This document shows positions 23,229-62,422 of a DNA stretch of 64,000 nucleotides, one piece after another. Source of the stretch: Hyphomicrobiales bacterium. Lineage in GTDB: Bacteria; Pseudomonadota; Alphaproteobacteria; Rhizobiales; Aestuariivirgaceae. The position numbers and the translations under genes were made by a program. Location: NCBI GenBank assembly GCA_016185245.1, contig JACPNZ010000039.1, positions 62,001 to 126,000 on the forward strand. Direction: 5' to 3'. The notes beneath the pieces were generated by a model. It was given only the letters and a program-made list of their open reading frames with translations. It was not told the origin of the DNA and ran no database searches. The number at the start of each line of letters is the position of its first letter. Within the stretch, counting starts at the first letter, position 1.

Positions 23229-23309
23229 GAACCGCGGAGACTGCCAACCCTTTGTAACGATTGGCGCGAGTGACGGGGCTCGAACCCGCGACCTTCGGCA
23301 TGACAGGCC
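23229..23309. repeat. Left attachment site (attL) with a 3'-half tRNA-Asp remnant
   Basis: This 81-bp sequence is repeated at 32902-32982 with a single difference (A at 23300 against G at 32973). Bases 23262-23309 correspond to the tRNA-Asp 3' half including CCA; the 5' half is missing, so it is not a working tRNA gene. The other 33 bp lie beyond the tRNA 3' end. Confidence 0.9.
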
Positions 23310-23434
23310 CTACGGAAACTTCAACGATTCAAGCATAATTCCGACATTTCCGGCCGCCGTTTGTGGCGAAAATGGCGGGAAGTTGGAAGCCCGCAAGCTC
23401 TACACGCTCGACCGCTGGCTGATGGTGGTTGCCC

Positions 23435-24283
23435 ATGGGTAAGAAGCGCCCGGGCAACTCCCATGGCGCGCGGAAATTCGCCTGGCTCGATCAGGTTGCC
23501 GCCGATCATGAGCTCTCGCGCCTGGCGTTGCACGTTGCCTATGCGCTGGCCCGCTGGATTACGCCCGGTGGAAAAGGATGGCGGAGCCAGAAGCTCTTAG
23601 CGGCGGACTGCGGCATAAGTTTCACCGCGGCCCGCAACGCGATCGACAGCCTGGCTCGGCGCGGGCACCTGATGGTTGTCACCGGCAATGGCCGGGGCCA
23701 CGCGACAACCTATTCATGGGTAATGAAGGTGCCAGAAAAGTGCAACGCCGACGGCACCTTTGAGGAAAATAAGGTACCACCGACATTGCACCTTTCCAAA
23801 AATAAAGGTGCCACGAAATTGAAAGAAAGGTGCCACGGAGACCCCCATAAAGGTGCCATGCCGGTGGCACCCAATCCGTTAAGTAAATCCGTAGAGGACT
23901 CCGTAGAAAGTATATCTCCGAAAAAACCGCTTTCGAATGGGATGGCTGGTAAGGCATTCGACGAGTTCTGGTTTCACTACCCGCGCAAGGTGGCCAAGGG
24001 TGCTGCAGAGAAGGCCTATGTCAAGGCGCTCAAGGCCACCGACGCTGCCACCTTGCTGGCGGGCGCCAAGCGCTATGCCGCCGAGCAGCAGGGCAAGGAC
24101 CCGAAATACACGAAGCACCCTGCAGGCTGGCTCAACGAAAAGCGCTGGGAAGACGAGCCAGTCTCTCCTTACGGCGGCGGCAATGGCTCCGGTTTGGCGG
24201 CGGAACTGGAAGCTCAGCGCCGGCAACTGAAAACCCCACCGCAATTTGACCTGGATATCGAAGCGGAGACCACCGATGGCTGA
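23435..24283 (+). CDS. Lambda O-like replication initiation protein with winged-helix N-terminus
   Basis: The 282-residue protein has an N-terminal winged-helix region (about 1-95, with LSRLALHVAYALARWI and AADCGISFTAARNAIDSL). A low-complexity linker follows, and then a C-terminal domain typical of phage replication proteins (KAFDEFWFHYPRKVAKGAAE, later TKHPAGWLNEKRWEDE). The linker DNA contains repeated AAAGGTGCCA sequences that look like iterons, the layout known for lambda O. The ATG at 23435 is preferred over the TTG two codons earlier. The end overlaps the next gene by 8 bp. It probably binds the origin inside its own gene and recruits a helicase loader; this is inferred. Confidence 0.75.
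   Translation: MGKKRPGNSHGARKFAWLDQVAADHELSRLALHVAYALARWITPGGKGWRSQKLLAADCGISFTAARNAIDSLARRGHLMVVTGNGRGHATTYSWVMKVPEKCNADGTFEENKVPPTLHLSKNKGATKLKERCHGDPHKGAMPVAPNPLSKSVEDSVESISPKKPLSNGMAGKAFDEFWFHYPRKVAKGAAEKAYVKALKATDAATLLAGAKRYAAEQQGKDPKYTKHPAGWLNEKRWEDEPVSPYGGGNGSGLAAELEAQRRQLKTPPQFDLDIEAETTDG
23726..23871. other. Candidate replication origin: iterons inside the replication gene
   Basis: Direct copies of AAGGTGCCA-type sequence start at 23726, 23771 (AAGGTACCAC), 23804, 23826 and 23849; the last three are spaced 22 and 23 bp, about two helical turns. Inverted copies (GGCACCTTT, TGCACCTTT, GGTGGCACC) lie at 23753, 23787 and 23863. An AT-richer stretch follows at about 23878-23930 and could be the melting region. 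Origin function is inferred from this layout. Confidence 0.6.
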
Positions 24284-25042
24284 GAATGGCGTCGCATTGC
24301 TGAAGGCGGGGCAAACCCTGCTCGAGCAGCTCATAGATGTGCCGCACCTATGGCGGCTCTCGCCCATCAGTCGCAAGCGGGCATCGAGGCGGCCAGCCAG
24401 CAGGCCGAGGCCGTGCTTGCGACCCTCCCCACGGTTCAGCAGGCCAGTAAGCTTCGCGCCGCGGTCAGCCGCATGTTGGCGACGTGCACCGAGTCCGAAG
24501 TCCGCGATCACATTCTGCAGCTCATCGGCGCCTTCCCGAATGGCCGACCGCCAGATCCGAAGACCTACATCGACCTGATGGTTGCGGATGCCATTGCCAC
24601 CAATTTGCCCGATGCCGCCGTCGAGGTTGGGTGTGTCAAGTTAAGGCGGACGAAGACGTTCCTGCCGACCATCGCTGAATTTCTCACTGCTTGCGAAGCG
24701 GCGAGAGCCAGGCTGCAGGGCATCTGCGACTTGTGTGACTCGCTCGAAGAACGCCGCGCCATTGCCGAGCAAATCATTGCCAATGCCAATGACCCGAGCT
24801 TCCGACGCGAAGAGCCAGTTTTGCTCCCCCAACCTCTGGTGCTGCGTTTGCATAGGCCAGCACCAATGCCATTCCCGACGCTGAGCAGCGCTTTCGCGGG
24901 CGACAAGGAAGCGATAGCGACGCTTGCCAGTTTGGACTTCAACGGGCTCTTCAATGCCTCCGCATACCTGAACCGGCATGGCCTGGAACACACACGCGAG
25001 TGGCTCTTGGCTGGATGCCCAGCTTTGAGGGTGAAGTCATGA
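24276..25042 (+). pseudogene. Helicase-loader-like (lambda P position) gene with an apparent frameshift
   Basis: An ATG at 24276 overlaps the replication gene by 8 bp and reads MAENGVALLKAGQTLLEQLI, but that frame soon turns into arginine-rich nonsense. The sensible continuation (AHQSQAGIEAASQQAEAVLA and onward to 25042) is in another frame with no start before 24350. A single indel near 24335-24350 would join both parts into about 255 residues. The second part includes LIGAFPNGRPPDPKTYIDLM and TFLPTIAEFLTACEAAR, resembling phage replication proteins that load helicase. The 230-residue product starting at ATG 24350 may still be made, but it lacks a visible ribosome-binding site. The family call rests on position and this weak resemblance. 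Confidence 0.55.
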
Positions 25043-25156
25043 CCGGGATGCCAAATCTTTGCTCGTCGCGGCGTCTGAACCCGCATCCCAAATACACACG
25101 CAATAACGCAAAATTGGAAGCCGGGGTCAAAGCCTTTGAAAAGAAAGGAAATTTCC

Positions 25157-25402
25157 ATGGAAAGTGCCCAAATCATCGAGCCAAGACCGAGACTCGAAGA
25201 TATTGCCCACGAGCTTTCCGACCACGTGCTTGACCTGCTCGACGCTGGCAATTCGCCCCATGTCGTATGCGAGGCTGCGCTGCTGGCAGCAATTCCGATC
25301 CTGCTTGAGGTTACCAAATTGCCGACCATTGAAGCCATGTTCGGCTACCTGGCTGCATCGTTCGATGGCAACGTCCGGCGTCAATGTGGTGATATGAATT
25401 GA
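25157..25402 (+). CDS. Small hypothetical protein of the integrated element
   Basis: The 81-residue protein opens with MESAQIIEPRPRLEDIA and is acidic and mostly helical (HELSDHVLDLLDAGNSPHVV, later AALLAAIPILLE). AAGGAA lies about 8 bases before the ATG, which fixes the start over the TTG at 25136. I recognise no family. It stands between the replication genes and the capsid gene on the same strand. Confidence 0.6.
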   Translation: MESAQIIEPRPRLEDIAHELSDHVLDLLDAGNSPHVVCEAALLAAIPILLEVTKLPTIEAMFGYLAASFDGNVRRQCGDMN

Positions 25403-25406
25403 CTCC

Positions 25407-25544
25407 ATGAATAAATTCTGCGATATTGCTGTTGCGCCGCCGGATGGTGGTGCACCTCCGGACGCCGGCGGACCATCGGATGATGGAAAAACCCGCAGGA
25501 TGCTCACGAGGCCGAAGTCAAAATCGGTTTTGCTGACATCATAG
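25407..25544 (+). CDS. Possible 45-residue protein ahead of the capsid gene
   Basis: A short frame (MNKFCDIAVAPPDGGAPPDA and onward) fits exactly between the previous gene (5 bp away) and the capsid gene (8 bp away). It is proline- and glycine-rich, with basic residues at its end. There is no strong ribosome-binding site, so it may not be translated. Confidence 0.3.
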   Translation: MNKFCDIAVAPPDGGAPPDAGGPSDDGKTRRMLTRPKSKSVLLTS

Positions 25545-25552
25545 GTGCGTCC

Positions 25553-27412
25553 GTGACTGACATCAGACATCTCGTTTTCGATCAGCCGCTCGAGCTGAGT
25601 TTTGTCGATGGCGGCGCTAAGACGGGCACGATCGCAGGGTATGGCGCCGTCTTCGGCGTTCCAACCATCGACGGCCGCATGGTAGATCGCGGCGCCTTCA
25701 CCGCCAGTGTCGCCGCACACAAGGCGGCGGGGACGGCGCCGAAAATGCTCTGGCAGCACGATGCGGGACAACCAATCGGCGTCTGGATCAGTTTCACCGA
25801 GGACGCCCGCGGCCTCAGGCTCACCGGCCAGCTGAACTTGCAGACCAAGCGAGGCGCCGAAGCCCATGCCCTGCTCAAGCAGGGCGCTCTCGACGGTCTC
25901 AGCATCGGCATCCTGATTCCGTCGGGCGGCGCTACCTTCGACCGCAAGAATGGCCTCGAGATCATCACCCAGGCCGATATTTGGGAGATTTCGGTGGTGA
26001 CCTGGCCGGCAAACCCGGAAGCCCGCGTCAGGCAGGTCCACTCCGTACGCAGCCGGGGCCAGCTCGAGAAACACCTTCGAATGTCCGGCCTCGGCAGAGC
26101 CCAAGCCCGCAAGATCGCGGGTGGCGGCTGGACCGCTCTCGACAATTCCCCACCCATCGACGCCGGCGACAAATCCAAGTTGCTCGCCGACATCAAAACC
26201 GCAACCTTAGAACTTCAAGGAAGACATATTGCCATGGGCATCAACAGCAACACCAAGGTGGCAAAGACCGCCTCTCCCCCGCAGACTGACCCCGATGACC
26301 CGCTCGCGGACATCCGCCAGTCCTTCGAGGATTACAATGAACAGGTAACGATCCTCAACGCCGACATCGACAAGCTCCGCCGCGAAATACGCCAGACGGC
26401 CGCTAATGCAACTGCGGCAGGCTTCATCGACATGATGGCCGGCGAGGACCGTTCGAAGGAATTTGCCATGTTCCGCGCCTTTCTACAGGGCAAGAAGGAC
26501 TTCACCCTGGCCACGACTCCCGACCCGGACGGCGGTTACACGGTCGGCCGCCAGATCGATGCCACCATCACTGACCAATTGATGACTATCAGCCCTATGC
26601 GTTCTCTCGCCCGCATCGTGACGCTCGGCCAGGGGTTTGGAGACTTCAAGCTGCCGATCGGTCGCCGCGGATCGACAAGCTCCTGGGTCGCTGAGAACCA
26701 GACGAGGCCGGCGACGAGCACGCCGACACTCGGCATGGTGACGCCAACCTCCGGCGAAATCATGAGCTACGCAAAAGCGACTCAGTGGCTATTGGACGAC
26801 AACGTCTTCAACATGGAGGAATGGCTGCGGAGCAATATTGTCGATGAACAGGCCTATCAGGAGGGCGTCGCCTTCATCTCGGGCACCGGCATCAACCAGC
26901 CGTCAGGCCTTCTCGCCGGCACGCCGGTCAATACCGCCGATGCAAGCCGCGCCTTCGGCATATTGAAATACTACCCATCGGGGAATTCCGGCGCCTTCCC
27001 GGCCAGCACCCCGGCGGATGTGCTGATCTCGTTCAGCTTCGACCTCACGGCTGCATATCGCGCCAATGCGAAATGGCTGATGAACTCGAACACAGCAAAG
27101 ACCATCATGCTGATGAAGGACGGCCAGAACAACTACATCTGGCAGCGCTCCTATCAACAGGGCAAGCCGGACTTGTTGTGCGGCTATCCCGTGGCGATCG
27201 ATGAGGGCATGCCGGACATTGCGGCGAACTCGTACTCCATCGCCTTCGGTGACTTCCAGCGCGGCTATGTCGTCGTCGACCGGCTCGGCACCCGCATGGT
27301 GCGCGATCCGTACACGACGCCCGGTTGGATCAACTTCTATGTATTCCGGCGAGTCGGCGGCTCAATCGCTGATAGCAATGCGATCCGCCTGATGAAATTC
27401 GCCACATCGTAG
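25553..27412 (+). CDS. Fused HK97-type prohead protease and major capsid protein
   Basis: The 619-residue protein joins two phage head proteins. Residues 1-165 are an S78-family prohead protease: YGAVFGVPTIDGRMVDRGAF, WQHDAGQPIG (His69), LDGLSIGI (Ser117) and WEISVVTWPANPEARV (Glu145). Residues about 250-290 form a helical delta-like scaffold (LADIRQSFEDYNEQVTILNA), and 315-619 are an HK97-fold capsid protein (TTPDPDGGYTVGRQI, GTGINQPSGLLAGTP, GDFQRGYVVVDRLGTR). The start is GTG. An internal in-frame ATG at 26234 is preceded by AAGGAAG at 10-base spacing and could yield the capsid part alone. No other head gene is present, so particles would need helper functions. Confidence 0.88.
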   Translation: MTDIRHLVFDQPLELSFVDGGAKTGTIAGYGAVFGVPTIDGRMVDRGAFTASVAAHKAAGTAPKMLWQHDAGQPIGVWISFTEDARGLRLTGQLNLQTKRGAEAHALLKQGALDGLSIGILIPSGGATFDRKNGLEIITQADIWEISVVTWPANPEARVRQVHSVRSRGQLEKHLRMSGLGRAQARKIAGGGWTALDNSPPIDAGDKSKLLADIKTATLELQGRHIAMGINSNTKVAKTASPPQTDPDDPLADIRQSFEDYNEQVTILNADIDKLRREIRQTAANATAAGFIDMMAGEDRSKEFAMFRAFLQGKKDFTLATTPDPDGGYTVGRQIDATITDQLMTISPMRSLARIVTLGQGFGDFKLPIGRRGSTSSWVAENQTRPATSTPTLGMVTPTSGEIMSYAKATQWLLDDNVFNMEEWLRSNIVDEQAYQEGVAFISGTGINQPSGLLAGTPVNTADASRAFGILKYYPSGNSGAFPASTPADVLISFSFDLTAAYRANAKWLMNSNTAKTIMLMKDGQNNYIWQRSYQQGKPDLLCGYPVAIDEGMPDIAANSYSIAFGDFQRGYVVVDRLGTRMVRDPYTTPGWINFYVFRRVGGSIADSNAIRLMKFATS

Positions 27413-27453
27413 TCGTCGGCCTGGCCCGCTGCCTCCTGTGACTGGCCAGGCTT

Positions 27454-27489
27454 GGGAGCGGGCGGTTCGCGCAGTTCCGACCCGCTCCC
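27454..27489 (+). terminator. Possible terminator after the capsid gene
   Basis: A perfect 9-bp inverted repeat (GGGAGCGGG at 27454-27462, CCCGCTCCC at 27481-27489) with an 18-base loop lies 41 bp past the capsid stop. No T-run follows, so intrinsic termination is uncertain. The rest of 27413-27679 shows nothing I can name. Confidence 0.4.
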
Positions 27490-27679
27490 ACCCCCAAAAC
27501 CGCTGGCCGTCAGCATTCGTTAGGGTAGTTGAGGCAGAGTCTCTGCGGGGTTGGACATGCATATCTTGTCCTTCCTGTCGGAGGGCTTCGCGAAGAGCTC
27601 GGCTCAAGTCTCCCACGATGCCGTTTCCCGGGCCAGAAACCGGGTCTATAGGCGTTTCGTGAGCGTGGGCGGGAAACCT

Positions 27680-28676
27680 TCACCCTTGCCTGTCGAGCAC
27701 CGTGGCGAGATTTCTGTCGGCCCGTTCGGTTCGAATATCCTTTGCCCTAGCGAGAATGTCGGCCGCCGTTCCTTCCGGCTCAATGCCCGGCAAGGTGGCG
27801 GAGGCGAGGGTGGGCGGTGGCGACTTCTTGGCCGGTTGCGGCTGGCCGTCTCTGCTACGGACGGTTTCATGGTGGAAAATTTTACCACCAGCGACAAGCT
27901 CTTCTCGAATGGCTGCGACGGTCGGGTGGCTCACCCCTAAGTCCTGAGCAATTGCCCGGTTCGAAACGTCCGGCCGGTCCTACGATTGGTCGAGGAGACG
28001 GTGGCTTTAGATTCCGCACCGGCTTTGCTGTGAGGGCCAGACGCCCCACTATCTGTGGGGTCACTGGCGAATGTCCCGGTCTTTTCTCGGGGGCGTTCCT
28101 TGGCTGCTTCGCCAGCTTGTCCATGCGCTCGACAGTGCCGCGATTGGTGGAGGAGGCAAGGGCTTTGGCCGTGGCAGCCTTCGCAGCTTGTTCGGCTGCG
28201 TGGTCTCTGCCGCCACCAATGTCGCCACTAGTTGTGGCGGAACTGGCAAAGGCACCCGACTCCTCGCGCGACCTCACTTTCGCCTTTTCAGTGCGCTTGG
28301 CATTCGCCGCCCCAGCCATGACTGCCCGCTGCGCCTGCCAGGCCGCCGACTTTTCAACCGAGGCCTTCCAGATCAGGTAACGCTGATCCTGGCCTATGTC
28401 GCGGCGCTGGCCATTGGCAGTCCAGACATAGGCAAACGGGTCGCCCTCGTAATGCTGGAAACGCGGCAAAATCTCAGCCTCGCGGCAGGCCCGGAAGCGA
28501 TTGCGACCGTCGAGAATTTTGCCATCGTGCAGGACAATATCATGAAGCAGCCCAGTCTCGCGCAGGCTCTACACCAGCTCGGCAAAACGGTCGGCAGCCA
28601 TGAGCGGGAAGAGCGTTGCCGCCTCGTGGTCGGCGAAGTCGTCGGTTGAAAGGTCGGGCAGAAGTTGGAAGGTCAT
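27680..28676 (-). pseudogene. ParB/Spo0J-type nuclease-domain gene with an amber stop and frameshifts
   Basis: From the ATG at 28676 the frame gives MTFQLLPDLSTDDFADHEAA and LFPLMAADRFAELV, then a TAG at 28571-28569 where a glutamine is expected, then SLRETGLLHDIVLHDGKI and LDGRNRFRACREAEILPRF. This is the ParB N-terminal nuclease fold. The frame continues to about 28080, after which sensible sequence is found in other frames, ending with the helix-turn-helix VSNRAIAQDLGVSHPTVAAI and stopping at 27680. So there is one nonsense mutation and at least one, probably two, indels. It lies opposite to the capsid gene. The intact form probably bound DNA for partition or regulation. Confidence 0.7.
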
Positions 28677-28798
28677 GCCTCCGCCCTCCGCTGCTTATCG
28701 AGAGCCGCCTCGGCGCGCCGCTTCGCCTTGCATTGGCCGCTCGGCCGCATGTGGCTTCCCCGCTGCGCCACAGCCTGCTATTTTCCAGCCCTGTCGCC

Positions 28799-28996
28799 AT
28801 GAAACATATCGACACCTACTCATTGCACCAGGCCGGAAACGTCACCCGGCGCATTGCCAGCCTGCCCGGCGCCAGTGAGCTGCCCAAGGTGCTGGTGACC
28901 GTCGAGCATGGGGCTGACCTGGGCGACGTGGCCGAACGGTTGCGGCGCATCGCGGCGGTATTCGAGAGGCATGCCGCCCGGCATGAGGCCGGCTGA
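28799..28996 (+). CDS. Small hypothetical protein
   Basis: The 65-residue frame begins MKHIDTYSLHQAGNVTRRIA and continues with a helical, basic C-terminus (VAERLRRIAAVFERHAARHE). It is divergent from the broken ParB-like gene (123 bp between starts). I recognise no family; composition is protein-like, but there is no strong ribosome-binding site. Confidence 0.45.
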   Translation: MKHIDTYSLHQAGNVTRRIASLPGASELPKVLVTVEHGADLGDVAERLRRIAAVFERHAARHEAG

Positions 28997-29010
28997 CGGA
29001 TGAGACCATG

Positions 29011-29307
29011 TTATTGGTCGAAATAATTGCCATCGATCACGCTGGCGATGATTTTGCCGGAGTAGTAGCCGGTCAAGAAGGTCGACCCCTGACTATCCGG
29101 GTGAGAGCGGCAGAATAGTGCAACCCCTATCGAAACCTTGGCGTCAGACGAAATATCCTGCCAACGCTTATCGTCGATTTGCGGCTCATCACCATCAGCC
29201 GAACGGATGACACTCAGGCCAGTCCACGAGTTTATGATGTTCGGAATGTTGCCAGCTTTGAGTTGCTTGCAGATGTCGGAACCGCCGCGAGGAAGTACAA
29301 AAATCAT
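29011..29307 (-). CDS. Hypothetical protein, downstream member of a coupled pair
   Basis: The 98-residue protein (MIFVLPRGGSDICKQLKAGN and onward) has a mixed alpha/beta look, with VSIGVALFCRSHPDSQGSTF and GYYSGKIIASVIDGNYF near the end. It overlaps the preceding gene by an ATGA junction, so the two are likely translated together. No family is recognised. Confidence 0.55.
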   Translation of the reverse strand: MIFVLPRGGSDICKQLKAGNIPNIINSWTGLSVIRSADGDEPQIDDKRWQDISSDAKVSIGVALFCRSHPDSQGSTFLTGYYSGKIIASVIDGNYFDQ

Positions 29308-29612
29308 GACGGCGGAGCCATGCTGTCGCGGATTGCCGAGAGCAGTCGATAGACCTGATCGTCTTCGCGGCCGTCATCTGCGAACAATACCAGCACCAGG
29401 TCAAGGAGCCCGGCCGCCTCTGTGGGCGTCATGCGACCGGCGCCTTCGATGGCCTTCAGCAAAAGCTCGGCGCGTGCCTGTTCGGCGGCGCAAGCTTCCT
29501 CGATGGCCTTCTCGTTGCCTTTCGCCGCCAGAATGTCGGCTTTAAATTGCGCGAGGCTTGTCCACCAGTCGGCGGTAAGTTGGGCGATGAGGGATGGCTG
29601 GCTCGCGATCAT
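29304..29612 (-). CDS. Hypothetical helical protein, upstream member of a coupled pair
   Basis: The 102-residue protein is mostly helical and acidic-to-neutral (LTADWWTSLAQFKADILAAK, then NEKAIEEACAAEQARAELLL). Its stop overlaps the next start as ATGA. I recognise no family. It lies among other leftward small genes of the element. Confidence 0.55.
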   Translation of the reverse strand: MIASQPSLIAQLTADWWTSLAQFKADILAAKGNEKAIEEACAAEQARAELLLKAIEGAGRMTPTEAAGLLDLVLVLFADDGREDDQVYRLLSAIRDSMAPPS

Positions 29613-29645
29613 ATTGTCTGTCGGTCAATAGCTCGTCCCGTCATG

Positions 29646-29825
29646 CTACGGTTTTGCCAGCCTTGACCGCTTGAGACGGCGATTCTGCAGCGCAGTCAGT
29701 TTGCCTGTCCTGCGGTTGAATTCCCTCATCCTCTCCGCAAGGACTTGGCGCAACTCTTCCGAGGGTGTGGGCCTGGGTTGATAAATCCCACCGATGTGCT
29801 TCTTGTGGTCGACTGGCTTCTTCAT
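29646..29825 (-). CDS. Very small basic hypothetical protein
   Basis: A 59-residue frame from the ATG at 29825 reads MKKPVDHKKHIGGIYQPRPT and ends NRRLKRSRLAKP. It is strongly basic and its codon usage looks like a real gene, unlike the overlapping arginine-serine-rich frames. It might bind nucleic acid. No family is recognised. Confidence 0.5.
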   Translation of the reverse strand: MKKPVDHKKHIGGIYQPRPTPSEELRQVLAERMREFNRRTGKLTALQNRRLKRSRLAKP

Positions 29826-29860
29826 CGGATGTCCTCATCCTGCCTAACAACGCAGGCCTT

Positions 29861-30043
29861 TCACCGCTTGCGCTTGGCCTTCGGAACTGGCGGAGCTTCG
29901 CCTTCCTTTGTCTCCCTGGCGGCCTTCAGCTGCGCAATCTTCGTGTCTTGTGTGGCCTTCTCAGCAGCGAGGATCTTCTTCACCGCGGCATCCAGGACCT
30001 CAGCTCGCTTCTCCATGCTGGTTTTATTGGGCGGCCCAGTCAT
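29861..30043 (-). CDS. Small charged coiled-coil-like protein
   Basis: The 60-residue protein is lysine- and alanine-rich with a long predicted helix (EKRAEVLDAAVKKILAAEKA, then KIAQLKAARETKEGE) and a basic tail. Its start overlaps the stop of the ribbon-helix-helix gene as ATGA, so it is probably its partner in a two-gene unit. Layout recalls a toxin-antitoxin or regulator pair, but no toxin fold is visible. Confidence 0.5.
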   Translation of the reverse strand: MTGPPNKTSMEKRAEVLDAAVKKILAAEKATQDTKIAQLKAARETKEGEAPPVPKAKRKR

Positions 30044-30234
30044 CGTTTCGCCTTCAGTCCCAGCTCGACCAGGCGGCGGATGGCTTCGGCCCGTGTTGCT
30101 GCATTGTTTGATGAGGCCCAGCGGTCAACAGCTTCCATCATGGACTCCGGCAATCGAGTGGAAACGGCAGGGTCTCGGCCCGTTGCTGGGCGCCCTCGAC
30201 GTTTTTTCCGGTCGACCGATATTGACTGCTTCAT
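30040..30234 (-). CDS. Ribbon-helix-helix DNA-binding protein
   Basis: The 64-residue protein has a basic N-terminus (VDRKKRRGRPATGRDPAVST) followed by a ribbon-helix-helix core: a beta strand (AVSTRLP), helix (ESMMEAVDRWASSN) and helix (TRAEAIRRLVELGLKAKR). Such proteins bind DNA as dimers and often repress their own operon. It overlaps the next gene by ATGA. Targets are unknown. Confidence 0.7.
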   Translation of the reverse strand: MKQSISVDRKKRRGRPATGRDPAVSTRLPESMMEAVDRWASSNNAATRAEAIRRLVELGLKAKR

Positions 30235-30321
30235 AAATAAGGTCTACCAGAAAGGCGAGCCAGGGAAAAGGTCGAAACTTTCCCCCGGCCCTAACCACCG
30301 CAACCTACGTAGGAGGCCGCC

Positions 30322-30900
30322 ATGGCTGATTCCCAAGATACCACCCTTTTGCCTGAACTCACCCGTCCGATGATCGAGGCGGAGATCGAGCGGCTGATAG
30401 CCAGGCTCGACGACATGGACCCGGACCCGGACCTTGAGGACGGCGGCGACGGTGAGCCCATGCTTGGCGCGCCGGAAGCCCACCGGGGCTCGTGGAGCGG
30501 CCTTTTCCCCGAGGCCTACCAGGACGACCGCGAGGCTGACGACGGCGACGACGAGCCCTCGCTGGCCGCGCCTGAGGCCTCTCGCGAAACACGGTGGGCC
30601 CAGACCCATTGGGCCGCCGGCCGTTCGGATGAGCTCGAAGAGGTTTGCGAGGACGAGGGAGCCCAGTGCGAGGACGAAGGGGCCTTTGAATATGAGGCGG
30701 AGCTCGACGAAGACCATGGGCCCTATATCAAGTGGCAGCCTCACAGCCGGGCGCAATGGGAGGCCGAAGTCCGGCACCAGGAGCGCACCACCAAGGCCTG
30801 CCAGGCCGGCATTGCCAATCTGCAGGCGGTACAGCGCCGGCACAGTAAGGCGCCGGTGCGATCGCTGCGGGTGCTTGGCGGGGCGACTGTGAAAGGGTGA
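30322..30900 (+). CDS. Acidic repeat-containing protein common in alphaproteobacterial islands
   Basis: The 192-residue protein is very acidic in its middle (DDREADDGDDEPSLAAPE) and has two related short blocks, GEPMLGAPEAHRG and DEPSLAAPEASRE. The C-terminus is basic. A TAGGAGG ribosome-binding site precedes the ATG. I recall similar acidic proteins with DAEPSLG-like repeats near integrases in Rhizobiales genomes, but their function is unknown; I know of no enzymatic domain. DNA mimicry is conceivable from the charge only. Confidence 0.65.
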   Translation: MADSQDTTLLPELTRPMIEAEIERLIARLDDMDPDPDLEDGGDGEPMLGAPEAHRGSWSGLFPEAYQDDREADDGDDEPSLAAPEASRETRWAQTHWAAGRSDELEEVCEDEGAQCEDEGAFEYEAELDEDHGPYIKWQPHSRAQWEAEVRHQERTTKACQAGIANLQAVQRRHSKAPVRSLRVLGGATVKG

Positions 30901-30929
30901 GGGTGCGCCGGGGTCGGTTTCTTATTTTC

Positions 30930-30969
30930 TTGACACATGTTGCGAAGTGCCCTATTGGTGAAAAATAGG
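30930..30969 (+). promoter_or_regulatory. Sigma-70 promoter with overlapping inverted-repeat operator
   Basis: A perfect -35 box TTGACA (30930-30935) is followed after 17 bp by a poor -10 box TATTGG (30953-30958). The inverted repeat CCTATT (30951-30956) and AATAGG (30964-30969), with a 7-base spacer, covers the -10 box and likely start point. This fits autoregulated transcription of the regulator, AlpA-like and integrase genes. Confidence 0.6.
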
Positions 30970-30977
30970 TGAACATA

Positions 30978-31469
30978 ATGGAAGTCATATTTTCGCAAGT
31001 TGCTGGAGTCGCGGGCTGTACCCTCAACCAGCTCAATGCCTGGAGTTTGCGGGGGCTATTGAAGACGAAACTCTTGCCTACGACTGCGGGCGTGGCGCGC
31101 AAATTCACCCGCAAGAATGCTTTGGAGCTCGCATTCTTGGCGGCAATTTCCGACGCCGGCATGCCTTTGGAGCTGGCGCCGCAGCTGGTCCGCCGATGGC
31201 TTCGCGAGGCTGGTAAAGGAATTCTCAAACCGTTTTTCGTATACTATCCGGTAAGCGGAAATAGCATCTATCTTGACGACACCAACCTCAATCGGCTCGC
31301 CGTTCTTTTTTACGACAACCAAGACGATGTCAGCGGCGAGTGGATCGATGAGAACGCGTCGCCGGACAATTCTCTGCCGGCTGAGCTGAACCCGGCATCG
31401 CGTTTCAACGTCATTGCGCTGTGCAACATCGTGACCTCGATAGATAAGCTGTTCATGGAAAAGGATTGA
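30978..31469 (+). CDS. Putative small transcriptional regulator, first gene of the integrase operon
   Basis: The 163-residue protein begins MEVIFSQVAGVAGCTLNQLN, then AWSLRGLLKT and RKFTRKNALELAFLAAISDA. This pattern resembles a MerR-like helix-turn-helix followed by a helical region, but the match is loose. I took the ATG at 30978, with AGGTG six bases before it, over the GTG three codons upstream. Its stop overlaps the AlpA-like gene by one base. The promoter in front carries an inverted repeat that this protein might bind. Confidence 0.55.
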   Translation: MEVIFSQVAGVAGCTLNQLNAWSLRGLLKTKLLPTTAGVARKFTRKNALELAFLAAISDAGMPLELAPQLVRRWLREAGKGILKPFFVYYPVSGNSIYLDDTNLNRLAVLFYDNQDDVSGEWIDENASPDNSLPAELNPASRFNVIALCNIVTSIDKLFMEKD

Positions 31470-31744
31470 TGGCCATCCGTTTCCACGTTGAGCCTCGCGA
31501 CGTGCCGTCACTGGCCGCGGCTCGGCGCCTGGGAGTTTCCGAGGAAGACTTCACCGCCATGCTGCCGAAGCTCATTGAGCGGGGCTTCCCCAGGCCTGAC
31601 GAAACGACCGGAAATTTTGATCTCCACGCCATCGATGAGTGGTGCACGCGCCGCAATCCCGAACTGTTTCTGACCGCGACTGAAAAAGCCCGCGACGCCC
31701 GCGCCGTGGTGGGCGATAGGCTGATAAGGCTGCGCAATGGTTGA
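31469..31744 (+). CDS. AlpA-like small DNA-binding protein, probable excisionase
   Basis: The 91-residue protein reads VEPRDVPSLAAARRLGVSEE, then FTAMLPKLIERGFPRPDETT and GNFDLHAIDEWCTRR. This is a winged helix-turn-helix in which a cautious AlpA/Xis-type reading fits (helix, RGFPxPD loop, DxxAIDEWC). The ATG at 31469 shares one base with the previous stop, and its end overlaps the integrase by 8 bp. Excisionases usually sit beside the integrase and direct excision. Confidence 0.65.
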   Translation: MAIRFHVEPRDVPSLAAARRLGVSEEDFTAMLPKLIERGFPRPDETTGNFDLHAIDEWCTRRNPELFLTATEKARDARAVVGDRLIRLRNG

Positions 31745-32861
31745 GCACCCGAGGATCCCCTACTCGCGCATCAAGGCCGATAGTCGGCGCTATTTTGAGC
31801 CAACCGCCAAGATGAAGGCCATGGGCTTCGAGGCCCGGGCGCTGGGGCCCGATGGCCCCGAAGCCCGGGCGGAAGCGCTTCGGCTCTATGAGGCCTGGCG
31901 CCAGGCCAAGGCTACCGGCACCACGTCGAGCGAGAAGGCGTATCCGATCGGCAGCATCGGGTTTGCTTTTGATCGCTATCGCCGGACGGATGCGTGGGCC
32001 GCCAAAGCGCCGATGACGCGCAAGAAGGATTGGGAATGGAGCTGGCGGTTCATCGAGCCGATCTTCGGCGACGTGGCTCCGTCGACTGTCCAGATCGAGG
32101 ACATCGAAGAGCTCCGCGCCATTGTGCTGGAGAAGCGCGGCCTCCACACCGCCAATCGGTTGATCAAAACTTGGCGCGCCTTGTGGCAGGTGATGAGCGC
32201 CATGGGCTACTGCGACAAGAATGCCGACCCATCGAAGATCATCCGTAACACAGCACCCAAGGGCCGTGATGCGACATGGAAGCCCGGCGAGCTCGCCCGC
32301 ATCGGCAAGATGGCCTGGCGGCTGGGCTACTGCGGCCTTGCAGCGCTTCTGGCTTGTTGTTGGGACACACAATTCAGCCCTGGTGATGCCCGCCTTTTGA
32401 AGGCGTCGCAGCGCAACCAGGACGCCCGTGGAAGCTATTTCCTGACCCGCCGCGGCAAGACAGGCCGGGAAGTCATCGGCACCCTTAGCAAGCGCTCACA
32501 ACGCATCATGGCCGCCTATCTCGAAACCCTTGGGGCGGAACCAATGGGCGAGGCCGCGATATTTCGGAACCGCTCGGGCCAGCCATACAGTAGCGACACG
32601 CTGGGCGACGACTTCCGCGCTGTTCGCGAGGCGGCATTTCCGGGCGATGGCCGCAAGCTTCTCGACATTCGGCGCAGTGGCGCCGTCGAGGCCATCGCCG
32701 GTGGTGCCGACCCGGCGGCAGTCGCGGCCAAAATGGGCAACACGATCGATAAGAATCGTCTCGAGCAGGAGACTTATCTTCCCAACAGGACGGCCACTGT
32801 GCGACGGGTTGACGAGGCGAGGAAGCTCGGCCGGCGCAAGCTTCGCGAGAACGAAACATGA
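31737..32861 (+). CDS. Divergent tyrosine site-specific recombinase (integrase)
   Basis: The 374-residue protein stands 40 bp from the right attachment repeat. It has a SAM-like core-binding region (about 70-165) and a catalytic domain. Catalytic candidates are R219 (TQFSPGDARLLKASQ), R312 or R313 (LDIRRSGAVEAI) and Y347 (QETYLPN). The usual HxLRH box is replaced by DIRRSG, so it belongs to a divergent alphaproteobacterial integrase group I recall with the same WDTQFSPGD and DFRRSGA motifs. It should insert the element into tRNA-Asp. It overlaps the AlpA-like gene by 8 bp, consistent with coupled control. Confidence 0.85.
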   Translation: MVEHPRIPYSRIKADSRRYFEPTAKMKAMGFEARALGPDGPEARAEALRLYEAWRQAKATGTTSSEKAYPIGSIGFAFDRYRRTDAWAAKAPMTRKKDWEWSWRFIEPIFGDVAPSTVQIEDIEELRAIVLEKRGLHTANRLIKTWRALWQVMSAMGYCDKNADPSKIIRNTAPKGRDATWKPGELARIGKMAWRLGYCGLAALLACCWDTQFSPGDARLLKASQRNQDARGSYFLTRRGKTGREVIGTLSKRSQRIMAAYLETLGAEPMGEAAIFRNRSGQPYSSDTLGDDFRAVREAAFPGDGRKLLDIRRSGAVEAIAGGADPAAVAAKMGNTIDKNRLEQETYLPNRTATVRRVDEARKLGRRKLRENET

Positions 32862-32901
32862 CGAAAAGTTGGAAACCGTCAGCTAAGGCAGTTGGAAAAC
32901 T

Positions 32902-32982
32902 GAACCGCGGAGACTGCCAACCCTTTGTAACGATTGGCGCGAGTGACGGGGCTCGAACCCGCGACCTTCGGCGTGACAGGCC
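32902..32982. repeat. Right attachment site (attR) overlapping tRNA-Asp
   Basis: This 81-bp copy matches 23229-23309 at 80 of 81 positions. It ends inside the tRNA-Asp anticodon arm, so crossover probably occurs there or slightly toward the tRNA 3' end. The element thereby restores an intact tRNA. Confidence 0.9.
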
Positions 32983-33011
32983 GACGCTCTAACCAACTGA
33001 GCTACACCCGC
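32935..33011 (-). tRNA. tRNA-Asp (anticodon GTC), CCA encoded
   Basis: The reverse strand starts GCGGGTGTAGCTCAGTTGG and folds into a full cloverleaf: acceptor arm GCGGGTG with CACTCGC, anticodon loop CTGTCAC (GTC) and T-loop GTTCGAACC. CCA is encoded at 32937-32935. It is the integration target of the adjacent element, and its 3' half now comes from the element. Confidence 0.95.
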
Positions 33012-60873: not shown

Positions 60874-62422
60874 GCAGCAGGCCTGTCCCCTTCCAGCCCA
60901 CCATCATCGCGGGACCGTTGATGTTGCCGGCGATGATGTTGGGAAAGACCGAGGCATCGATCACCCGCAGCGCCTCGACGCCGCGTACCCGCAGTTCGGA
61001 ATCGACAGCACCGCCCTCGCCCATGCGCAGCGTGCCGCAAGGGTGGAAGATGGTGGCGGTGCGGGCCCTGATGTCGGCGATCAATTCGGCATCGGTTGCC
61101 ACCTGAAGCCCGGGCTTGAACTCCTCGGCGATGGCGGTCGACAGCGGCGGCGTCGCCGTCAACTTGCGCAGGAACTTGGCACCCTCCAGCATCTCCTGCA
61201 TGTCATGGTCGGTCGCCAGCAGATTGGGCTGGATCGCCGGGGCATCCTCCACCGACGGCGTCTTGGCCTCGACCCAGCCGATGCTGGTCGGGCGGCACGA
61301 GGAGACGCTGATCGACAGGCCGGGAAAGGGATCGGGGGCGGTCATCTGGCGAGTCTTGGGGGGTGCCCGATCATAGGAGGAAGCGCAGAAATAAAGCTGC
61401 AAATTGGGTCGGGTCCGGCTTTCATTGGAGCAGATGAAGCCGCCGGCATGGTTCAGGCTGCCGGAAAGCGTCCCGGTGCGGAACAGCATGTAGCGCGCCA
61501 CCGCCAGGGCGCGGCGGGGGAGCGGCCCCAGCTCCTGGTTAGTTGTCGGCACCCGCGCCTTGTAATAGTGGTCGTAGCAGGCATGGTCCTGCAAATTGCG
61601 GCCCACCGCCTCGTTGGCGGCAACGACGGGCACGCCGAGCCGGGTGAGCAGTCCCACCGGCCCCACGCCGGAAAGCTGCAAAAGTTGTGGACTGTTGATC
61701 GCTCCCGCCGAGACGATCACTTCGCGTCGCGTTGTTGCCTTGCGCATCTCGCCGCCTTTCACATAGGCAACACCCACCGCTTTCCGGCCTTCGAAGAGAA
61801 TGCGCGAGGCCAGGGCCCCGGTCTCGACCCTGACGCGCCGGCTGGCCAACGCCGGCCTGAGGAACACCGCCGAAGCGGAGCGGCGCCGGCCGTCATGGGT
61901 CGTCACCGGATGATAGCCCACACCCATCTGCAGCCCATTGTTGGGCTGGTGGTTGAGCGGCAGGCCAAGCGCCAGTCCGGCGTCCAGATAGCGCCGGCAC
62001 AGGGGGTGGGCGACGGACTCGGTCGAACCGATGTTGAGTTGCGCCTCGATCGCCTCATAGGCTGGAACCACATCGTTCCAGCCCCAGCCGGGATTGCCGG
62101 CGGTCACCCAGTCGGCGAAATCCTCGGGGGCGCCGCGCATGTAAACCATGGCGTTGATCGAGCTCGAGCCGCCCAGCACCTTGCCGCGCGGCACATAGGC
62201 CGACCGGCCACCGAGGCCGGCAACCGGTTCCGACCAATACATCCAGTTGTATCTAGGATCATAGAAGGTGGCGCCGTAGCCCAAGGGCAGAGTGAAGAGA
62301 AAATCGCGGTCGGAGGGGCCTGCCTCGAGCAGCAGTACGCTGGCCTTGCCCTCGAGCGCCAGGCGGTTGGCCACGATGCAGCCGGCCGAGCCCGCTCCCA
62401 CGACGATATAGTCGAATTCCAT
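60866..62422 (-). CDS. GMC-family FAD-dependent oxidoreductase (choline dehydrogenase-like)
   Basis: The 518-residue flavoprotein has the N-terminal FAD motif DYIVVGAGSAGCIVANRL, RGKVLGGSSSINAMVYMRG, the second signature GAINSPQLLQLSGVG and catalytic histidine and asparagine at IFHPCGTLRMG and NINGPAMM. GMC enzymes oxidise primary alcohols, choline or sugars. No betaine gene is adjacent, so choline is uncertain. It converges with the FAD-linked oxidase (8-bp overlap) and is divergent from the enolase-superfamily gene. Confidence 0.9.
   Translation of the reverse strand: MEFDYIVVGAGSAGCIVANRLALEGKASVLLLEAGPSDRDFLFTLPLGYGATFYDPRYNWMYWSEPVAGLGGRSAYVPRGKVLGGSSSINAMVYMRGAPEDFADWVTAGNPGWGWNDVVPAYEAIEAQLNIGSTESVAHPLCRRYLDAGLALGLPLNHQPNNGLQMGVGYHPVTTHDGRRRSASAVFLRPALASRRVRVETGALASRILFEGRKAVGVAYVKGGEMRKATTRREVIVSAGAINSPQLLQLSGVGPVGLLTRLGVPVVAANEAVGRNLQDHACYDHYYKARVPTTNQELGPLPRRALAVARYMLFRTGTLSGSLNHAGGFICSNESRTRPNLQLYFCASSYDRAPPKTRQMTAPDPFPGLSISVSSCRPTSIGWVEAKTPSVEDAPAIQPNLLATDHDMQEMLEGAKFLRKLTATPPLSTAIAEEFKPGLQVATDAELIADIRARTATIFHPCGTLRMGEGGAVDSELRVRGVEALRVIDASVFPNIIAGNINGPAMMVGWKGTGLLLR

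Follow-up and report, generated by a model that had tools for sequence, protein, structure and literature searches.

We describe a small integrated element at positions 23229-32982 of a 64,000-nucleotide stretch of DNA (the window; positions 62,001 to 126,000 of contig JACPNZ010000039.1, assembly GCA_016185245.1) from a Hyphomicrobiales bacterium of the Aestuariivirgaceae, in which a fused prohead protease-major capsid gene is the only virion gene recognised. The reading that we prefer, and to which we give about an even chance, is that of a satellite that builds its own shell and relies on a helper phage for the portal, the packaging motor and the tail. The window is part of contig 30 of genome G000 (3.5 Mb, 58 contigs). 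The features that bear most directly on this reading are the following:

23229..23309, unstranded: attL, the left attachment (att) site; 33 bp plus the 3' half of tRNA-Asp (remnant), 80/81 direct repeat
23429..24283, +: Rep, replication initiator; phrog_270 (E 1.3e-33), phrog_9327 (E 4.7e-20), 38% identity to the rep of G029:C8
23736..23859, unstranded: iteron cluster AAAGGTGCMAC inside rep; 5/5 window matches
24350..25042, +: p230, putative replication helper; 36% over 138 aa to p227, the neighbour of rep in G029:C8
25553..27412, +: prohead protease-major capsid fusion, 619 aa; PF04586, PF05065, phrog_10, phrog_80, TIGR01543, TIGR01554
26234..27412, +: capsid part with possible internal start, 392 aa; ATG with AAGGAAG upstream, HK97-fold model
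31466..31744, +: probable excisionase, by position; 69% to the gene beside the integrase in G029:C30
31737..32861, +: tyrosine integrase; phrog_1 (E 1.8e-11), 69% to the tRNA-Asp integrase of G029
32902..32982, unstranded: attR, completing the intact tRNA-Asp; 80/81 direct repeat, ARAGORN tRNA
32935..33011, -: tRNA-Asp (gtc), target gene; ARAGORN

Boundaries and target site of the element

The element is framed by two direct repeats that are identical at 80 of 81 bases, do not extend on either side and are spaced 9,673 bp apart. Each copy comprises 48 bp inside the tRNA-Asp gene and 33 bp past its 3' end; the sole mismatch (A at 23300 against G at 32973) lies within the tRNA part, and the 33 bases outside the tRNA are all the same. 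Because the next longest repeats of the region are only 34 nt long at 71-74% identity (among the 20 of 35 repeat families listed), the 81-bp near-identity is no chance event. The right end holds an intact tRNA-Asp and the tyrosine integrase, 40 bp from the repeat, and the left end holds only the 3' half of the tRNA. Near-perfect 81-bp repeats, an integrase beside one end, an intact tRNA at that same end and a 3' remnant at the other had all been named in the original prediction, an earlier reading of the same DNA from the letters alone, and each is borne out. The repeats, at 80/81 and with 33/33 bases shared outside the tRNA, point to an apparently recent integration, which 81 bases date only loosely.

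Matches that hold both tRNA-Asp and ridA occur in 12 other genomes of the genus, from which eight loci were fetched, with G029 handled apart and G005, G009 and G018 left out. Five of the eight (G016, G034, G004, G031 and G028) have no insert, and nuoA adjoins tRNA-Asp as it does in the outer flanks of the window; nuoA is absent from the 4.6-5.0 kb fetched on that side of the tRNA in G017 and G001, and the contig of G010 ends about 1 kb from it. In G029 the site is filled by a different element, with nuoA and the left att copy on C12 and the integrase and tRNA on C30. The att repeats, the restored tRNA, the integrase and the empty site in relatives together identify an integrative mobile element in a tRNA gene. 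Elsewhere, near nuoA on G025:C34 (L325:2529-2576), the 3' half of tRNA-Asp recurs as a 48-bp copy, next to a gene that reads like a transposase; this is probably a further insertion in tRNA-Asp, truncated where the contig ends.

The Pfam match of the integrase is below the cut-off. Integrases of this type occur in 13/397 genomes of the order (E 1e-20, own genome included), with tRNA-Asp beside them in six of the nine places fetched, and the integrase is therefore a shared module and no mark of the window element. In G158 one such integrase has portal and large terminase subunit (TerL) genes about 14 kb away. The putative excisionase has no family match in the Pfam and PHROGs scans, and its homologs adjoin the integrase at 6/9 of the fetched places, including G396. 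Partial copies of the same integrase also lie next to tRNA-Asp in other families (L170:10680-11243 and L171:9545-10244) and are remnants of past insertions at this site.

The protease-capsid gene and the search for other virion genes

The fusion is a stop-free reading frame of 619 codons with strong matches to PF04586 (E 6e-25), PF05065 (E 5e-71) and TIGR01554 (E 2e-90). The protease domain spans residues 15-161 and the capsid domain residues 327-616, the latter covering the Pfam capsid domain in full (1-280/280). Protein similarity extends up to about 20 codons upstream of 25553, and the start may be earlier. The ATG at residue 228, preceded by AAGGAAG, is a possible internal start for the capsid part. 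The GC content by codon position (0.58/0.48/0.77) is near that of the four host genes measured. An AlphaFold model of the capsid part has the HK97 fold (mean pLDDT 76.8), and its best solved match is the capsid of the Rhodobacter capsulatus gene transfer agent (RcGTA; 6TB9), followed by that of EcCI2 (9GYI), a capsid-forming phage-inducible chromosomal island (cf-PICI). With the window protein alone as the query three solved chains are retrieved at E <1e-5, namely 6TB9, 6TBA and 9GYI, of which the first two give near-identical alignments and the EcCI2 capsid matches at E 2e-42.

We scored strongly conserved capsid columns in 134 of 139 rows, five repeated loci having been dropped and some of the rows being near-identical; the window capsid keeps 41/49 of these columns against a median of 47/49. 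As this places it 22nd from the bottom, the gene is constrained but diverged, like other long branches. Two trees were built, the first from 115 of the 139 extracted rows (window included, identical or repeated rows dropped) and the second from 44 hand-chosen rows. In both, the window capsid groups with the metagenomic phage capsids L044, L048 and others (support 100/96 and 98/94), and stands apart from the GTA-like capsids of the order. Closeness to the capsid of G029:C8, which might be expected from the common rep, is rejected by both trees. In the second tree it is also separate from RcGTA, and EcCI2 falls with ST64B-type phages in the next wider group (93/89), although EcCI2 is a long branch of unsure placement. 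By reading, the portal, protease and capsid genes are close together in both L044 and L048. Since L044 has, one after another, the end of a TerL gene, portal, protease and capsid genes and one more open reading frame (ORF), the labels beyond protease and capsid being given by reading, the window capsid was probably derived from those of ordinary phages.

Near full-length matches to the protease-capsid protein in G114, G087, G063, G148, G123 and G000:C45 proved to have a stop between the two parts in each case. The capsids of these six loci form one clade, which we take for GTA capsids, and none of the window's rep, p230 and integrase genes is found near them in the 6-20 kb pieces fetched.

Pfam and PHROGs scans of 18 ORFs and pieces from the element recognised no portal, terminase or lysis family, and the only tail-type match is a marginal one to a tail-fibre family (phrog_6578, E 0.013) on a piece of a broken gene. 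The fused gene thus remains the sole structural gene found, as the original prediction had it, and its statement that portal, terminase, tail and lysis genes are missing agrees with these scans. Traces of lost genes were sought by comparing ORFs of >=70 aa from the fetched loci with the element at E 1e-4 (373 loci and 15,056 ORFs, against a first count of 378 loci and 15,170 ORFs; loci that hold the window's own DNA were left out), a search that is blind to families absent from those loci and to ORFs <70 aa. Zero matches fell in 24896-25492 and 27500-31465, and those just inside these limits, whichever their strand, begin within the protease or capsid region. On this ground the capsid gene appears to have around it no recognisable remnants of portal, terminase, connector, tape-measure or tail genes.

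Measured against cf-PICIs, the element has the major capsid protein and the head maturation protease. Neither the scans nor the trace search found a portal, nor the small terminase subunit (TerS), TerL or HNH; head-tail connectors were likewise found in neither, and this is the weakest of the tests as such genes are small and diverged. Of the packaging, head, tail and lysis genes of a complete prophage only protease-capsid is present among the 18 ORFs and pieces. These also gave no family match to a capsid-size redirecting protein, and small ORFs with no assigned function are present. Tandem repeats above the score limit are absent from the element.

Replication module, related elements and remaining genes

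The rep gene is listed with a TTG start, and an ATG at 23435 is also in frame. When the iteron AAAGGTGCMAC is sought with <=1 mismatch, all five matches in the 64-kb window fall at 23736-23859, inside rep; whole-window shuffles give a mean of 1.4 matches, and 2/100 reach five. In an element of the same genus, G029:C8, the iteron core has six matches in 19 kb, all within rep, and 0/200 shuffles reach six; the pattern was derived from the very sequences scanned, those of the window and of G029:C8. The iteron core is common to both although the Rep proteins are only ~38% identical, and this suggests a working origin. Together with the phrog_270 match these iterons uphold the earlier description of an iteron-bearing replication gene. 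In G029:C8 the rep and p230-type genes keep the order that they have in the window, adjoining the distal att copy. Rep relatives occur in 14/248 genomes and the p230 family in 10/397 (own genome counted in both), G029 being absent from the p230-family and integrase-family tables of 397 genomes; the plasmids scanned with p230 gave no match. The p230 protein might be a P-like loader, the match to lambda P being only at E 0.21; its structural model is mostly helical and of low confidence (pLDDT 66), and was set aside as evidence of function.

The G029:C8 element occupies about C8:54995-71093 (L187:2995-19000 and L188:1-93), is 16.0 kb long and lies in tRNA-Phe, with a repeat of 54 columns, 53 identical and one a gap, that includes the 3' part of the tRNA. 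From the tRNA inward it encodes an integrase, a small gene, a MerR-like gene (below the Pfam cut-off), an Arc-type regulator, a tape measure (872 aa) and TerL, followed by TerS (PF05119), HNH (PF01844), a phrog_5707 protein, capsid, protease, a 92-aa ORF, portal, p227 and rep. The tape measure is the only tail gene seen, and no head-tail connectors were identified, in small ORFs scanned in part. The available text of PMC10690885 gives the cf-PICI set as capsid, protease, portal, connectors, TerS, TerL and HNH. The gene content of G029:C8 is near-complete in these terms, connectors excepted, and we call the element cf-PICI-like. No published description of it was found in the portions of the literature searched, and the main cf-PICI hosts listed in the available part of PMC10803314 include no named alphaproteobacteria; G029:C8 can thus serve as an alphaproteobacterial cf-PICI-like reference element. 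As it shares the replication module of the window element and has this near-complete set, it argues for kinship of the latter with capsid-making satellites. The original prediction had allowed for either a satellite or a prophage that lost everything else; the former gains this kinship, and the latter is only weakened.

The second element of G029, in tRNA-Asp, is split over C12 (L324:1-5370) and C30 (L163:1-7146). Reading inward from the left att copy, the C12 part has HNH and an O-like rep; an 85-aa ORF, the capsid gene (phrog_10, E 7e-43) and a tape-measure gene that runs past the contig end come next. The C30 part holds genes for a ParB-type protein, a nucleoside deoxyribosyltransferase and a phrog_2045 protein, then a small gene and the integrase. 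A search of all of G029 finds the phrog_12 portal only at C8 and C43, PF03354 TerL only at C8 and phrog_2 TerL only at C43, where portal, TerL and capsid matches stand together in what is probably a GTA cluster; other portal or terminase families, or an assembly gap, could hide more such genes. The C12 capsid has few close relatives among 248 genomes (G221 at 35%, and a fragment in G183 at 55%), and zero by pattern scan of viral contigs. On a 3.8-kb contig, G221:C71 (L337), small ORFs lie ahead of a capsid gene at 33-35% to the C12 capsid and an ORF that reads as TerS-like comes after it; this is perhaps another satellite of this kind. In G035:C594 (L190:2713-7656) the ORFs after a Rep relative read as TerS-like and as a TerL of the GpA type, and the element may be one that carries packaging genes only.

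The exact set of rep, p230, window capsid and integrase is found in no searched genome besides its own; the search also took in viral contigs (four scans, two of which kept the best 80 loci each), genome contigs scanned with the window capsid (41 loci) and plasmids scanned with p230. G029 holds relatives of all four, but spread over two different elements. The idea that fused capsid, iteron-bearing replication gene and integrase form a conserved set in other genomes accordingly failed outside the genome of origin.

The remaining genes of the element are:

25136..25402, +: p88, small protein directly upstream of the capsid gene; ORF only
27683..28694, -: broken gene, presumably ParB-like; two pieces in different frames match phrog_21315 in order
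29011..29307, -: hypothetical, 98 aa; ORF
29304..29612, -: hypothetical, 102 aa; ORF
30040..30234, -: ribbon-helix-helix regulator, 64 aa; PF01402 (E 6.5e-5, over the cut-off), phrog_4738 repressor (E 1e-11)
30322..30900, +: acidic hypothetical, 192 aa; ORF, GC at third codon positions 0.77
30969..31469, +: MerR-type regulator; PF13411 (E 3.3e-5, over the cut-off)

The broken gene is a feature beyond those noticed earlier. Its pieces, 28568-27885 and 27979-27683, match phrog_21315 at E 2e-6 and 1e-4; a TAG at 28571-28569 halts the upstream piece, and a frame change follows. The GC content of the pieces by codon position is flatter (0.65/0.57/0.64 and 0.69/0.53/0.66). A sequence motif suggests that the gene is ParB-like; phrog_21315 itself is annotated as a family of unknown function. 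The p88 protein has no PHROGs or NCBIfam family and a best Pfam match of E 0.32; homology to the 85-aa ORF before the G029:C12 capsid was considered and is not established (BLAST E 0.85).

Competing explanations and known systems

If the element is a satellite that makes its own shell, the integrase would release it from the tRNA gene in circular form, about 9.7 kb long, as the repeats imply, and Rep, binding the iterons in its own gene and helped by p230, would replicate it, as suggested by its family and by the iterons common to the relative. The fused gene would yield a procapsid in which the protease trims the precursor, and the internal start may add free capsid protein. A helper phage would supply portal, terminase, connectors and tail, and the satellite shell would be filled and tailed with these parts. 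We favour the view that the satellite had its present gene content before it integrated here, because of the clean boundaries, the apparently recent integration, the intact capsid gene without traces of neighbours and the replication module shared with a cf-PICI-like element.

Several observations count against a shell-making satellite. The capsid is below the median in conserved columns (41 vs 47 of 49), its nearest kin (46%) are the phage contigs L044 and L048 and not the G029:C8 capsid, one gene of the element (minus strand, 27683-28694) is broken, and the exact gene set is unmatched in the other genomes searched. The host genome has no portal (PF04860, phrog_12) or TerL (PF03354, phrog_2) outside a GTA-like cluster, and no PF03354 TerL anywhere, which leaves it with no resident helper of those families. 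The fit of a foreign portal to the window shell is an assumption of the proposal. Lastly, a satellite with a capsid as its sole virion gene is absent from the literature searched, which consisted of partial texts (including PMC10690885, PMC11389934, PMC10803314 and PMC11364771) with subscription papers mostly outside it.

As the main rival reading, it is possible, though we would not call it probable, that the element is a reduced remnant of a cf-PICI-like satellite or a small prophage, whose portal, packaging and tail genes were lost by clean deletions, leaving the capsid as a survivor with no present role. This would fit the layout of G029:C8, where the portal lies between p227 and the protease, at the place where the window has only p88, and the packaging genes follow the capsid; the prophage-like setting of the integrase relative in G158 and the broken minus-strand gene also favour it, although a single broken accessory gene is compatible with a live satellite and with an element in decay alike. 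However, such a history needs two separate deletions, one on each side of a fused gene left intact, with no recognisable trace remaining, within the time allowed by the 80/81 repeats. In the tRNA-Asp element of G029, too, a capsid gene stands near rep, and no portal or TerL belonging to the families sought across that genome accompanies it. It seems improbable that the element interferes with phages by means of a capsid that acts as a decoy or dominant-negative subunit, poisoning head assembly of incoming related phages, and that it moves rarely or otherwise: the lone intact capsid gene without recognisable packaging genes and the element's own regulators would suit such a role, but the protease domain, which a decoy would presumably not need, is kept whole, and PADLOC on 10 proteins gave as its sole match a marginal one to p230 (E 0.0036).

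We regard it as highly improbable that the helper is the host's own GTA, with the satellite shell taking GTA portal, terminase and tail. The head-tail cluster at G000:C45 (L168, C45:1-20000) is the sole place in the host genome with portal and TerL of the tested families, and its capsid is 40% identical in the capsid domain. Yet the GTA-type capsids form a separate clade beside that of the window, the GTA label of G000:C45 is one that we presumed in part from its gene features, and no packaging link between such a satellite and a GTA is known. An extension of the shell-making satellite, which we think doubtful, is a 'shell-only' family in these alphaproteobacteria whose members carry only the parts that set particle size (capsid and protease in the window, capsid and tape measure in the tRNA-Asp sister element of G029) and receive portal, motor and tail from a helper; if so, head-size and tail-length genes would be a movable set apart from the rest of the virion.

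The element can be compared with several known systems. GTAs are head-tail clusters without an integrase. The window element resembles RcGTA-type GTAs in that 6TB9 is the best solved capsid match, but it has an integrase, and protease-capsid is its one structural gene of the head and tail, so that it is not a GTA. With phage-inducible chromosomal islands (PICIs), P4, PICI-like elements (PLEs) and phage-inducible chromosomal minimalist islands (PICMIs) it shares the form of a small integrated element without tail genes; those systems use or reshape the helper capsid (for PICI and P4, according to the available text of PMC10690885; for PLE and PICMI, likewise according to partial sources), whereas the window element has its own capsid gene. 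The Streptomyces satellites MulchRoom and MiniFlayer also have their own capsid gene but, unlike the window element, carry terminase, portal, scaffold and adapter too and have no replicase homolog, as far as the same text of PMC10690885 goes.

G029:C8 shares with the window element the distal rep and p230-type gene, the iteron core, protease and capsid, and at the tRNA end both have a MerR-like gene, a small gene and an integrase. It differs by carrying portal, TerS, TerL, HNH and tape-measure genes, by encoding protease and capsid separately and by having a capsid of another clade. Like cf-PICIs (e.g. EcCI2), the window element is small and integrated and has its own prohead protease and HK97-type capsid, an integrase, regulators and a replication gene, but cf-PICIs carry a primase-replicase whereas its Rep is O-like. 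Because no portal, connectors, terminase or HNH were recognised in it, all of which belong to cf-PICIs in the available text of PMC10690885, it should on its apparent gene content not be called a cf-PICI. It may nevertheless work like one, with more taken from the helper. If it does make its own shell, it would be an intermediate between satellites that reshape the capsid of a helper and cf-PICIs that make whole heads, and would make testable both whether a satellite shell accepts a helper portal and motor and how capsids are gained and lost in satellites.

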